A stretch of 64,000 nucleotides of DNA from Propionimicrobium lymphophilum DSM 4903. GTDB lineage: Bacteria > Actinomycetota > Actinomycetes > Propionibacteriales > Propionibacteriaceae. Shown one piece after another: positions 948-10,459 of the stretch. Location: NCBI RefSeq assembly GCF_000423485.1, contig NZ_KE384026.1, positions 357,583 through 421,582 of the forward strand. Reading direction: 5' to 3'. Position numbers and translations under genes: made by a program. The number at the start of each line of letters is the position of its first letter. Position 1 is the stretch's first letter. The notes below the pieces were generated by a model. It was given only the letters and a program-made list of their open reading frames with translations. It ran no database searches and was not told the DNA's origin.

Positions 948-953
948 ATTCTA
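948..953 (-). promoter_or_regulatory. -10 element of trpS, leaderless arrangement
   Basis: TAGAAT on the minus strand matches TATAAT at five of six bases and ends 7 nt before the trpS ATG, so transcription would begin at or next to the start codon. It overlaps the stop codon of the upstream PHP gene. No convincing -35 was found. Confidence 0.5.
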
Positions 954-1811
954 GAGCACAGAGATTTTTCCGCCATGACTGCGGATTCGAGTCACCAACC
1001 CCTGCAGAGCGCTATGCCTTGTGGTCTCGCTGCCTAAGGCGTGACCGATCTTGCCGGTGCCGTGATAGTCGCTTCCACCAGTGCGCATCAGGCCAAGTCG
1101 ATGCCCGAGTTGCCAAAGAAGATCCCTGCTCACGTTATCTTGGTCCGGGTGGTCGACCTCTATCCCGTCCAAGCCATTTTCCAGCGTCAATTTTTCGATG
1201 AGTTCGGTACTGATATTTTCACCTCTGCCCTTAATAAGTGGGTGAGCCAAAACAGCTGCCCCGCCAGCAGAATGGACAAGATCAATAGCCTTTTCGACAG
1301 GAATTTCGTAGCGTCCCACGTAAGCGGGTTTGCCGTAGGCGAGATACTTTTCAAAGGCCTCATTGCGATGCTTCACATAGCCCGCTGTGACCATTGCGTC
1401 GGCCACATGGGGCCTACCTATAGAATTGCCTGCTGCCTTTTCCTGAACGTCCTCAACTGAGATCTTTATACCCTCTTCGGTTAGCTTTGAAACGATCTGA
1501 GGGATGCGCTCTTGGCGGCTTTTCAGGCACTTGCTTAACTCTCCGAGCAAATCAGCATTGTGAATGTCAGTACCGTAGCCAAGCAGGTGAACCGAATCTT
1601 CTCCCGAGCAAGCACTTATTTCAATTCCGGGGATGACTCTGACGCCAATGCGCCTGCCCATCTCCATGGCCTCGGATAAACCGTCGAAAGTGTCATGATC
1701 GCAAAGTGCTACAACGCCGACACCGGCTTTCTGCGCATTAGCAACAAGCATGGTTGGCGTGTCGGTGCCATCGGAAAACGTTGAGTGTGTATGTAAGTCG
1801 ATTTTCATCAT
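951..1811 (-). CDS. PHP-domain metal-dependent phosphoesterase
   Basis: A 286-residue protein of the TrpH/YciV-type PHP family, whose known members are 3',5'-nucleoside bisphosphate phosphatases or 5'-3' exonucleases. It begins MKIDLHTHSTFSDG, the first metal-binding HxH motif, followed by CDHDTF, IEIS, VLAHP and GGSDYHG near the C-terminus, so the expected metal ligands are present. The start at 1811 (ATGATG) overlaps the stop of the upstream gene as ATGA, which indicates translational coupling; the next ATG at 1808 is equally possible. A longer reading back to 1889 would read through the upstream gene without family support. The exact substrate is not deducible. Confidence 0.88.
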   Translation of the reverse strand: MMKIDLHTHSTFSDGTDTPTMLVANAQKAGVGVVALCDHDTFDGLSEAMEMGRRIGVRVIPGIEISACSGEDSVHLLGYGTDIHNADLLGELSKCLKSRQERIPQIVSKLTEEGIKISVEDVQEKAAGNSIGRPHVADAMVTAGYVKHRNEAFEKYLAYGKPAYVGRYEIPVEKAIDLVHSAGGAAVLAHPLIKGRGENISTELIEKLTLENGLDGIEVDHPDQDNVSRDLLWQLGHRLGLMRTGGSDYHGTGKIGHALGSETTRHSALQGLVTRIRSHGGKISVL

Positions 1812-3529
1812 TGTCCCCCAGTAACATTTTCGAACCTGAAGCTTGCCTCTAACGCAGACATAAATTTTTGCCTGTCGCCATAAGGCCACTCTTCGATTCT
1901 AGAGACTCCTGCGGGCAGGCTCAGCCCGAAGTCATAGACAACCGCCGGTTTTCCTCTCAATTTCACCTTGAACGGAAATTCATCGACGATATCGACGCCA
2001 AACCCAACTAGTTCAGGGACTAATTCGGAGAGCTTCATTTCGGCACCGACACGGAATATCTTCAACCGGAAGTCGACACCGTTTTGTGGAGGGATTGGCT
2101 GATAAATTAGCAGGCCTAAATCATCGGAATTTTGTATTTTGTTAAACTCCGCCAAATCTGTCACCGCTTCCAACGGCGTGTATGCCTCTTTATAGGCATC
2201 TGAGAAATCAATCCCCCTAGCGGATGAGGGGAATCTTTCCGCGATCTCAGCAAACCGATCCGACCAGCTTCTAGTTGCGTGCTTAATAGAATTTTCTAGT
2301 CTTGTCGGATCTACATGAGGTAGTTGTCTGCCCTCTTCGACTCGCAGGCTTATGTAAACGCGAGCTAGAACGGATTCGCTAACCAAAAGGCTCCACTCAA
2401 CTTCTTTAGCTCCTGTTGCAGCCTTCAGCACTTCGATCATCTTTTCTCGAACCGTCGTGTTATAACGGTCCCGAGGAAAGTAAATGACGGCAGTCAGCAT
2501 CCGCCCCCAGCGCCCTCTACGCAAGAACATTCTTAGCTCTCTGCGCTCCTCCGGTTGTCCCACCTGAGCCAAGATCGGATACAGTTCTTTCGGAGTTGCC
2601 CTAAGCAGTTCCTCGCGAGGGAAAGTCTCCATCGCTGCGAGCAGACTCCTCCCGGCGAAAGACTCTGGGTCGTATTTCAGTTCCTCCATCATCTTGTTGG
2701 ACTTTTGCGCGAGCAACGGCACATTAAAAATTGACTCCGAGTACGCCGTGGAAGTCAGGAGCCCCAAGAACCTGTGTTCTCCTATGACCTTTCCCTGAGA
2801 AAAGATCCTTACCCCAAAGTAATCGAGGTATCCCCCTCGCCTGATCCTTGACCGTTCTGAATCCTTAGTTACGATCAATTCCTCGGGATCTTCGCCGGGA
2901 AGTAGCGAAGCATGGAAACGCCTTGTAGCTCTAACCACATCGTTGAGAATTCCCAATCCGTTCGATCTTGGCCAGAAAGCCCCAGTGTCAGTAATTCGAT
3001 AAGTCTGGGAGCCTACAGGCAGAAAATGGCTCGGGTCAGAAAGCCAAATCAGCATCTGCCTGGTCGTTTCCTGCTGCGCAGACTCAGCAACCTGACGAAT
3101 GTTTTCGCGCATCTGTTCCATGTCGTTGCTGACGATGGTTAGATCGTCCAGAGCCAATTTGAGCTTGCGCTCTAACCCAGGGAGAGTTTCATCGGTAGGC
3201 ACGCCTAGGGGGCTCAAGAGATCTAGCCTTACCCAGGATTCCCGACTGGCTTTCTCGGCGTTCTTACCAAACGCAGTTATTAGACCTTTTTCGTTACGCG
3301 TCACCCAAGGCCGAGGATGCGATAGTCCTCTATTTAAAAAACCTAGGCTGTTGGCAATCTGCAGTATCGTCTCCACGATAAAAGGGCGGTCTGCTGTTAT
3401 CACTTGGACTGTAACATGGGCACTAGCGTCTAAGCTGCCTTGGCGAACTCTGATGAGAGTTTGGTCTGGCTGGCGCGCAATTTCTTCGAATTCGGCAAGA
3501 TCTTCCGGAAATCGAGTCTCGCTAGGCAT
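1808..3529 (-). CDS. NAD-glutamate dehydrogenase N-terminal regulatory region only, no catalytic domain
   Basis: The 573 residues resemble the N-terminal part of the large (about 1600-residue) L_180-type NAD-glutamate dehydrogenase. An ACT-like start (HVTVQVITADRPFIVETIL, residues about 37-57) leads into a middle section with FLRRGRWGRML and YFPRDRYNT. A last ACT-like segment follows (FRLKIFRVG, LVPELVGFGVDIVDEFPF, about 490-530), then a short helix where the catalytic region would begin. The frame then stops, and a PHP gene follows in ATGA overlap, so no dehydrogenase domain is encoded. The start has a good AGGAG site. The frame is open throughout, so this looks like a maintained stand-alone regulatory protein rather than debris. 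Function is unknown. Confidence 0.75.
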   Translation of the reverse strand: MPSETRFPEDLAEFEEIARQPDQTLIRVRQGSLDASAHVTVQVITADRPFIVETILQIANSLGFLNRGLSHPRPWVTRNEKGLITAFGKNAEKASRESWVRLDLLSPLGVPTDETLPGLERKLKLALDDLTIVSNDMEQMRENIRQVAESAQQETTRQMLIWLSDPSHFLPVGSQTYRITDTGAFWPRSNGLGILNDVVRATRRFHASLLPGEDPEELIVTKDSERSRIRRGGYLDYFGVRIFSQGKVIGEHRFLGLLTSTAYSESIFNVPLLAQKSNKMMEELKYDPESFAGRSLLAAMETFPREELLRATPKELYPILAQVGQPEERRELRMFLRRGRWGRMLTAVIYFPRDRYNTTVREKMIEVLKAATGAKEVEWSLLVSESVLARVYISLRVEEGRQLPHVDPTRLENSIKHATRSWSDRFAEIAERFPSSARGIDFSDAYKEAYTPLEAVTDLAEFNKIQNSDDLGLLIYQPIPPQNGVDFRLKIFRVGAEMKLSELVPELVGFGVDIVDEFPFKVKLRGKPAVVYDFGLSLPAGVSRIEEWPYGDRQKFMSALEASFRFENVTGGQ

Positions 3530-3597
3530 TAAGGAATCTCCTGAGTTGATCAGACGCGTTGATTAGTACCTGCTGCCTGAAATGGCATCATGTATGT

Positions 3598-4062
3598 ATG
3601 CGAATTACATCACGTCACGAATTTGCTGCAAGCTCACAGGCCGTCTACGCAATGCTAAGGGATAAAAATTTCCTAAGTAAGGTAGCCGAAATGGCAGGAG
3701 CAGATAGCTCTGAAGTCACCGAAGACGATTCAGAAGTCACCCTGAGAGCAGGCATTGCTGCCCCAAGTAAAGCGCAAAAATTCGTAGGGCAAAGCATCAA
3801 CCTCAAGATGGTCGCTACCTGGAGCGATCTAATCGACGGTAGAGCAGAAGCAGATCTATCTTCCACCGTGGAAAACATGCCCGCCACTTTAACGGGTAAA
3901 GCTCTCCTAAGAGGAAACGAGAAACTCACAGTTGTCGATTATGAATGCGACTTCACGGTAAGCGTTCCACTTCTGAGCAAAAAAATCGAGGAAACTGCTT
4001 CACCTTACGTTATGAGAGTGATCGATAAACAGCAGGAAGTCGGAAAAGAGTGGCTCAGCTAA
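3598..4062 (+). CDS. DUF2505 family protein (SRPBCC-like)
   Basis: A 154-residue cytoplasmic protein. It begins MRITSRHEFAAS, followed by alternating beta-strand and helix segments ending in a long C-terminal helix (around VMRVIDKQQEVGKEWL). This is the pattern of actinobacterial DUF2505 proteins, thought to adopt a START/SRPBCC lipid-binding fold. I chose the ATG at 3598 because the upstream in-frame residues (starting near 3559) do not look like the family. No clear ribosome-binding site is seen. The gene converges on the next one and their stop codons overlap. Function is unknown in the family. Confidence 0.7.
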   Translation: MRITSRHEFAASSQAVYAMLRDKNFLSKVAEMAGADSSEVTEDDSEVTLRAGIAAPSKAQKFVGQSINLKMVATWSDLIDGRAEADLSSTVENMPATLTGKALLRGNEKLTVVDYECDFTVSVPLLSKKIEETASPYVMRVIDKQQEVGKEWLS

Positions 4063-8913: not shown

Positions 8914-8994
8914 AATGTTCCCTGGAAGAACATCGGTTATTTATTTTTTCACCAGGTGCGCGGCAAGTATCTCAGGCAAATTCGCAGGTCTCCC

Positions 8995-9000
8995 TATAAT
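8995..9000 (+). promoter_or_regulatory. -10 element of the DivIVA-like gene, leaderless
   Basis: A perfect TATAAT ends 7 nt before the ATG at 9008, so the transcript should begin at the start codon. This decides the start and removes 31 residues of upstream open frame. No strong -35 is seen. Confidence 0.7.
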
Positions 9001-9007
9001 TAAGCGC

Positions 9008-10459
9008 ATGGCGACTAACGATGAGCAGCCCAATTACGAAGTCTCGGAAGAAACCGACATGACCGGGCTCAACTTGTTCGATGAGCGAGCCAGCGCCGCT
9101 GGCAGCTTTCCACACGCGATGCTTGGATACGACCGCACCGCAGTTGACACCTATGTCAGGGATGTAGAACAACAAGTCTCGACACTGCGTCAGCTGACTC
9201 GACATCTACGTCGAGAGCTTTCGATCACGCAGTCTTCTCAGGGTGAAACCGACTTCAGCCGGCTAGGCGCTCACGCCACTTCGATTCTTCGTTCCGCTGA
9301 AACCCAGGCCGAAGATCTTGTTGCAAAGGCTGGATTAGAAGCAGAGCGAATTCGTGAAGAGGGACGCCGCAACGCTTCAGACCTCAGGGCTAACGCGCAA
9401 AGTGAGGCAGACGACATTCGGGTTTCCACCGCGGAAGATCTTCGCAAGACCCGAGAAAAATTAGATGCCGATGTTCAAGCAGCTCGAGAAAGCGCTCAAG
9501 TCGAATCGGCCAGCATTGTCACCGCTGCGCGTCAGCAGGCCGAAACGATCGTCTCTGAGGCAAATCACAAAGCGCATCTGGCTCTGACAGAGGCCAAGGC
9601 AACGGCTAGACAGCTAACCGCCGCAGCCGAGCAAGAAGCGGCTCAAAAAACTTTAGAAACCGAAGCGGCTGCTTCCACTACTCTTAGTGATGCCGAAGCA
9701 ACAGCCAACAGAACCCTGCAGCAGGTCAGGACGGTTGCCGATTCGATGCTTGCTGAAGCAGAAAATAATGCTCACAAAACTCTTAGCCTCGCCGATCAAG
9801 AAGCAAAAAAGACCGTTTCTCAGGCACGAGCTAACGCAGACGCGATCATGGCTACCGCCGATAACGATGCACAGAGCAGGTTAGCAACGGCAAAGGAAGA
9901 AGCCTCTAAGACCCTAGCCGAAGCCCATCAGGCAGCAAGCGAACAATTAGCCAAAGCTAACGAAGGAGCCTCCAGCATTAAGGAAGAGGTCGAGAAGATC
10001 CTTTCAGATGCTCGTCAACAGGCAGAGAAAGCCACTGCTATTGTCGTCGAGCATACAGAACAGGCAGCAGCTATTAGAGCCGATGCGATCAAGGAAGCCG
10101 ATGAGGCCCGTGCACGTGCAGCTAGCGAGAGCGAGGCGCAGTTAGCTTCGGCTCATCGCCAATCTGCGATGCTTCGTGAGCGTCTCGAGCAACAATTTGA
10201 ATGGCGCAAGGAACAGCTGCAGCGAGAGATAAACGTTTTGATTGGCAGGAAGAAGTCGATCATTGGTCAGCTCGAAGCACTGCAACAGGTTGGTCTCGAA
10301 TCGCTCAATGACTTCCCCGACGATGATCCGTTCCCCGAGGTCGAACTACCCGATCGACCTGCAGACGACGAAAAATGGCTAGCAGATGGCCAGCCTGAGC
10401 AGACTCTCGTAGTCGACGACGAGAAAACAAAAATTTTGAAAACCGACAAGAAGAAATAA
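9008..10459 (+). CDS. DivIVA/Scy-like coiled-coil protein with hendecad repeats
   Basis: A 483-residue acidic, Ala-rich protein. The N-terminal part has a DivIVA-like motif (GYDRTAVDTYVRDVEQQV, about residues 40-57). From about residue 93 to 320 it is made of 11-residue units of the type LxxAxxxAxxT, for example LAEAENNAHKT, LSLADQEAKKT and LATAKEEASKT. Hendecad repeats are known from the Streptomyces cytoskeletal proteins Scy and FilP, which act with DivIVA at cell poles. A basic stretch (EWRKEQLQREINVLIGRKKS) and an acidic tail follow. It is probably a polar growth or cell-shape scaffold. The start is set by the perfect -10 seven nt upstream. The nearest alternative family is Wag31/DivIVA itself. 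Confidence 0.8.
   Translation: MATNDEQPNYEVSEETDMTGLNLFDERASAAGSFPHAMLGYDRTAVDTYVRDVEQQVSTLRQLTRHLRRELSITQSSQGETDFSRLGAHATSILRSAETQAEDLVAKAGLEAERIREEGRRNASDLRANAQSEADDIRVSTAEDLRKTREKLDADVQAARESAQVESASIVTAARQQAETIVSEANHKAHLALTEAKATARQLTAAAEQEAAQKTLETEAAASTTLSDAEATANRTLQQVRTVADSMLAEAENNAHKTLSLADQEAKKTVSQARANADAIMATADNDAQSRLATAKEEASKTLAEAHQAASEQLAKANEGASSIKEEVEKILSDARQQAEKATAIVVEHTEQAAAIRADAIKEADEARARAASESEAQLASAHRQSAMLRERLEQQFEWRKEQLQREINVLIGRKKSIIGQLEALQQVGLESLNDFPDDDPFPEVELPDRPADDEKWLADGQPEQTLVVDDEKTKILKTDKKK

Follow-up and report, generated by a model that had tools for sequence, protein, structure and literature searches.

The window analysed here, a 64,000-nucleotide stretch of the Propionimicrobium lymphophilum DSM 4903 genome, contains an uninterrupted 573-codon frame on the minus strand (3529-1808) that begins with ATG and, as read from the sequence, has AGGAG about 8 nt upstream. 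On the basis of Pfam matches, an AlphaFold model and an overlay on 7jsr, its 573-aa product corresponds to the ACT half of the large, 180-kDa NAD-glutamate dehydrogenase (GDH) L-GDH180, here as a stand-alone protein. The TGA stop of this gene overlaps the ATG start of the following gene on the same strand in an ATGA (1808..1811). The following gene (951..1811) codes for a phosphoesterase with a PHP domain, a relative of 3',5'-nucleoside bisphosphate phosphatase / RNase RNM, as assigned from PF02811, sub-cut-off NCBIfam matches and synteny in six relatives. On the other side, a short divergent intergenic region (3530..3600), which carries the AGGAG ribosome-binding site of the ACT half and gave no sigma-70-like match in a promoter scan, is followed on the plus strand by a DUF2505 gene (3601..4062; Pfam and synteny), which marks the GDH locus by its conserved synteny. 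Elsewhere in the window (8915-10459, plus strand) lies a gene for an Ala-rich coiled-coil protein of 514 aa that starts in a DivIVA-like manner (GYDRTAVDTYVRDVEQQV); a ComF-like gene is oriented divergently from it.

Matches above the curated Pfam cut-offs were obtained for GDH_ACT1 (aa 19-102, 34 bits), GDH_HM1 (aa 270-329, 46 bits), GDH_ACT2 (aa 333-423, 87 bits, E=1e-24) and GDH_ACT3 (aa 471-541, 51 bits), which occur in the order found in L-GDH180, also in the 7jsr overlay. HM2 (aa 442-462) is weak, with a sub-threshold GDH_HM2 match, and the first helix of HM3 is located at about aa 550-571. A PAS-type domain is present between ACT1 and HM1 (about aa 103-269); it was placed, with no separate profile score, by the 7jsr overlay and the domain map of the M. 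smegmatis enzyme (PMC8175468). In a phmmer search, M. smegmatis NAD-GDH (7a1d) was matched over residues 19-542 (E=1e-41) and was the only significant sequence match among solved structures. The AlphaFold model, for which 46 homologous halves served as input, had a mean pLDDT of 89.7 and a pTM of 0.83. Its residues 8-567 overlay residues 40-612 of 7jsr (Z 34.1 over 535 residues; Foldseek E=1e-35), a region that comprises ACT*1-PAS-HM1-ACT*2-HM2-ACT*3 and the start of HM3 (PMC8175468).

The domain order, fold and evolutionary family are therefore common to the window protein and the L-GDH180 of M. smegmatis (7JSR/7A1D; PMC8175468), including ACT2 and ACT3, the two domains that make dimer contacts in that enzyme. 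Unlike the M. smegmatis protein, the window protein has neither the catalytic nor the C-terminal domain, and the N-terminal segment before ACT1 is also missing: the M. smegmatis enzyme aligns only from its residue ~40 onwards, and the homolog in the closest relative (G012, see below) has about 60-70 extra N-terminal residues. A further difference is seen at the end of ACT3, where the DERP motif reads DEFP. By offset count, the arginine replaced by Phe is Arg560 of the M. smegmatis enzyme, an interface residue that is absent from the P. aeruginosa enzyme (PMC8175468). An earlier note, made from the sequence alone, had described an open frame with a good ribosome site that matches the ACT-rich N-terminal region of L_180 NAD-GDHs, and both descriptions were confirmed; the profile comparison it proposed gave matches to four GDH profiles and none to PF05088. 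Its statement that the frame stops before the catalytic domain holds as far as PF05088 is concerned, but misses the loss of the N-terminal segment, and the protein ends after the first HM3 helix, short of the exact catalytic boundary.

L-GDH180 enzymes are tetramers held by contacts of ACT2, ACT3 and the C-terminal part, with allostery by amino acids or nucleotides. Two of the features of L-GDH180, PF05088 (the catalytic family) with its substrate and catalytic lysines and the C-terminal helical PF21074, are absent from the window protein. Neither PF05088 nor PF21074 was matched in the gene or anywhere in the 2.04-Mb, 100%-complete assembly. An apparent identity of 67% between the window protein and other sequences in the catalytic region was alignment noise that involved three tail residues only. 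A conventional small GDH of 453 aa was found in both the P. lymphophilum and the G012 genomes and can carry the reaction, which means that both may still dehydrogenate glutamate. However, several relatives whose large enzyme is intact have the small GDH as well, so that having it is not by itself an explanation of the loss.

We compared the locus with those of related organisms. A search at the DNA level gave no close named relative, and a profile scan yielded full-family relatives only, among them Enemella, Granulicoccus, Micropruina and Microlunatus, which confirmed the family as Propionibacteriaceae. The order SecA-DUF6912-DUF2505(divergent)-GDH-PHP(-TrpS) is kept around a full-length GDH in four genomes (G012, G013, G020 and G032), and the core DUF2505-GDH-PHP-TrpS is common to two more (G016 and G011), in which SecA and DUF6912 were outside the stretch compared or unmatched. 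In all six loci the PHP gene begins 8-75 nt from the GDH stop, and the junction in G013 is as tight as that in the window. Since this is an ordinary family GDH locus with the same neighbors, about 1000 codons (the HM3, catalytic and C-terminal domains), counted against G012, were lost in place at the site of the ATGA overlap. The window gene is thus the resident single-copy GDH of the family in a shortened form that, relative to G012, lacks ~1000 codons 3' and some 60-70 codons 5'. Other variations of the large enzyme were also seen in this family: one genome (G024, Propionibacteriaceae) possessed three full-length L-GDH180 paralogues, the active-site motif of the catalytic domain in G016 (L042) is ARCGIRWSD as against the usual ARGGLRWSD, and the catalytic domains of genus g17 scored below most of the family.

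We further checked the occurrence of stand-alone copies in other genomes. ACT2 was present in 115 of the 198 family genomes and in 75 of the 218 genomes of a phylum sample; neither set contained another such copy, and none occurred among the best-scoring matches listed for an order sample in which 299 of 392 genomes carried ACT2. Several short frames were rejected as candidates. In a one-contig genome (G156; L149, G156:C1:3071000-3077500) the gene has a frameshift near codon 1129 with the rest present; both halves of this large GDH are well conserved, which points to either a sequencing error or a fresh pseudogene. Other short frames reflected a gene split into overlapping frames (G650), a contig end (G567) and a disruption near the start of the gene (G109); the remaining short frames of the family, all in fragmented assemblies, were assumed to be contig ends rather than checked one by one. 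Our literature search turned up no relevant report of bacterial GDH/ACT regulators that are inactive or free-standing. The arrangement is accordingly known from one genome with the stand-alone ACT half, the sole such copy seen, and one sister genome with an apparent pseudoenzyme.

This sister genome (G012), the closest relative in our comparison, belongs to another genus, is complete at 2.0 Mb and has the same locus. Phylogenetic analysis placed its GDH as the sister of the window sequence with 100% bootstrap, and the two ACT halves are 53% identical. The G012 gene (L041:6410-11119, minus strand) is an open frame of 1569 codons that differs from the window gene in keeping the HM3, catalytic and C-terminal domains, with full-length matches to PF05088 and PF21074. 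Within its catalytic domain, 48 of the 167 columns that are invariant in 24 other taxa are broken, compared to 0-7 in each of those taxa when scored leave-one-out; in the ACT half, 2 of 34 invariant columns are broken in G012 and likewise 2 of 34 in the window protein. The losses include K818E, K828G (GAKGG changed to GAGGG), N1117K (the Asn of EGGNLG) and most of the GDMxGDVFGNG nucleotide-binding loop. In alignments with the small GDHs 4xgi and 1bvu, the catalytic lysine K828 falls on the lysine of GGAKGG and K818 on that of VKN; in GDH chemistry these conserved lysines have catalytic and substrate-binding roles. The divergence of G012 is seen in its catalytic part, which is 49-51% identical to three references (69% or more in other taxa), whereas its ACT half, at 37-43% identity to the same references, is as similar to them as those of other taxa. 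The catalytic branch of G012 measures 1.22, while none in the rest of the tree exceeds 0.34, and the ratio of catalytic to ACT distance is 1.02 versus 0.31-0.41 in other taxa. With 593 bits across the whole PF05088 profile, it is the lowest-scoring full-coverage match among 149 family genomes. The uninterrupted frame together with the full-length matches gives this protein the look of a pseudoenzyme rather than a pseudogene. We infer that the G012 GDH is without enzyme activity, an apparent pseudoenzyme whose catalytic residues were lost while the frame and fold-level conservation stayed.

The window ACT half has also changed faster than its sister. Its branch is ~1.9-2.1 times as long (0.59 vs 0.28-0.32), and Tajima tests of the window and G012 ACT halves gave chi-square values of 2.1-10.5 depending on the outgroup; the neighboring TrpS, SecA and DUF6912 showed no significant rate asymmetry, and PHP was asymmetric with one of five outgroups. 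Among columns conserved at 75% or more, 31% are changed in the window protein, compared to 18% in G012 and at most 24% in the 24 other taxa. These changes concentrate in ACT1 (12 of 26) and HM1; ACT3 has 6 of 23 such columns changed in the window protein and none in G012, and ACT2, with 5 of 35, shows no acceleration. On the other hand, 32 of the 34 invariant columns are kept, both replacements are conservative (D53E and L172V), and changes at columns conserved at 90% or more are mostly swaps among V, I and L. No stop or frameshift occurs within the 573 codons. A neutral excess of ~0.2 substitutions per site over the sister, a value that we estimated from the above branch lengths scaled by neighboring genes, should have produced about 6 stops, whereas the frame has none (P(0) about 0.003). 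Between the window and G012, pN and pS are 0.32 and 0.84 for the ACT half and 0.32 and 0.91 for PHP; synonymous sites are saturated, which leaves dN/dS against G012 uninformative. A fair reading of these sequence comparisons is that constraint on the window ACT half is loosened but not absent, although, if the truncation is very recent, the evidence would bear on the protein before truncation and not on the stand-alone form. The suggestion in the earlier note that the frame is kept under selection therefore stands in part: the invariant columns and intact frame speak for it, and the long branch and changed columns against it. Of the relaxed selection that it named as counterevidence, the faster branch was found, but the changes at the most conserved columns are mostly conservative and the frame is unbroken.

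On balance, we lean towards the view that the window gene is a GDH remnant in which catalysis was lost, everything downstream of the first HM3 helix, which follows ACT3, was then deleted in place, and the remaining module persists as a non-catalytic sensor. In the simplest reading, catalysis would have been lost in a single event in the common ancestor of G012 and the window lineage, with the sensor half staying constrained while catalysis died in the clade. The dead catalytic part would then have been free for deletion, and would have been removed, in the window lineage only, after activity was gone. The ACT-PAS module may persist because it works without catalysis. It could self-associate through ACT2 and ACT3, the domains in contact in the M. 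smegmatis enzyme, would most likely bind an amino acid or metabolite and change its assembly state on ligand binding, and may act on another protein. The fuller claim, that in this clade the giant NAD-GDH became a pseudoenzyme and later a free ACT-PAS sensor, is more tentative, and we place it somewhat below an even chance.

Several other explanations should be weighed against this reading. Because the genome is a draft of 26 contigs, a catalytic half could in principle exist but be collapsed or mis-assembled; this is extremely improbable, as the gene is internal to a 465-kb contig, synteny with relatives holds on either side of it, stop and start overlap cleanly at the junction, and PF05088 and PF21074 are missing from the whole of the complete assembly. 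The earlier note had also proposed the co-translated PHP phosphoesterase as a special partner, and the ATGA overlap, which places both genes in one transcription unit, would fit a dedicated regulator of this enzyme. However, in each of the six relatives PHP comes directly after a full-length GDH. The coupling is thus ancestral and older than the truncation, the overlap is not evidence of a new partner, and PHP evolves as it does in relatives. The idea of PHP as a special partner is not supported, and we consider such a dedicated regulator very unlikely; as a target of the ACT module, PHP has no better chance than the conventional small GDH or some other enzyme of nitrogen metabolism.

A more serious competitor, to which we give a substantial minority of our belief, is that the gene is a decaying remnant: the enzyme would have become dispensable in a reduced genome with a small GDH, the 3' two-thirds would have been deleted recently, and the rest would be expressed but useless, too young to have acquired a stop. 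The fast branch with its significant Tajima tests, a share of changed conserved columns above that of every other taxon, and the additional loss of the N-terminal segment agree with decay, as do the genome size (2.0 Mb in a family mostly of 2.5-4.5 Mb), the complete loss of the gene in many relatives and the unique occurrence. Decay fits less well with the unbroken frame, the two conservative changes at invariant columns, the V/I/L character of most other changes at strongly conserved positions, the unaccelerated ACT2, the confidently predicted intact fold, and a pN/pS well below 1 that, at saturated synonymous sites, resembles that of the functional neighbor PHP; these points lose force if the truncation is very recent. 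We favor a sensor with a non-catalytic role over a decaying remnant.

Proteins of related design are known. L-GDH115 enzymes keep catalysis and lack the ACT-rich half, whereas the window protein, in the reverse situation, does not have the catalytic core without the long ACT-rich N-terminus that defines them. They represent another natural truncation of the architecture (scheme in PMC8175468), of which the window protein is the complement. Two GDH frames of ~1130 aa, one in G167 (G167:C5:87124-88599), with no ACT2 among the matches listed, and one in G198 (G198:C1:500342-501844), a second copy beside a full-length one, are probably L-GDH115-type enzymes and mirror images of the window gene. 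IlvN/IlvH are free-standing ACT regulatory subunits, i.e., ACT proteins without a catalytic domain, and offer a possible mode of action for the window protein. The aspartate kinase regulatory subunit (2zho) gave a weak single-domain structural match to the window model. Subunits of the 2zho and IlvN/IlvH types bind a known catalytic partner, and in sequence they are not close to the window protein.

Why an L-GDH180 enzyme needs ACT and PAS domains that total more than 600 residues is a question on which the window protein bears. No ligand is named for these domains in the structural study (PMC8175468), and our literature search found no ligand paper for the 2026 cryo-EM entries. The window protein consists of the ACT/PAS domains alone and is small enough to purify and crystallize, which offers a direct route to the ligand. 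With its sister, whose active site is ruined, it forms a natural experiment on whether the giant enzyme has a second, non-catalytic role. Should the gene turn out to be decaying, it would be no more than a common gene loss. If the clade did pass from a pseudoenzyme to a free sensor, L-GDH180 would have a selectable signalling role that is separable from glutamate oxidation.
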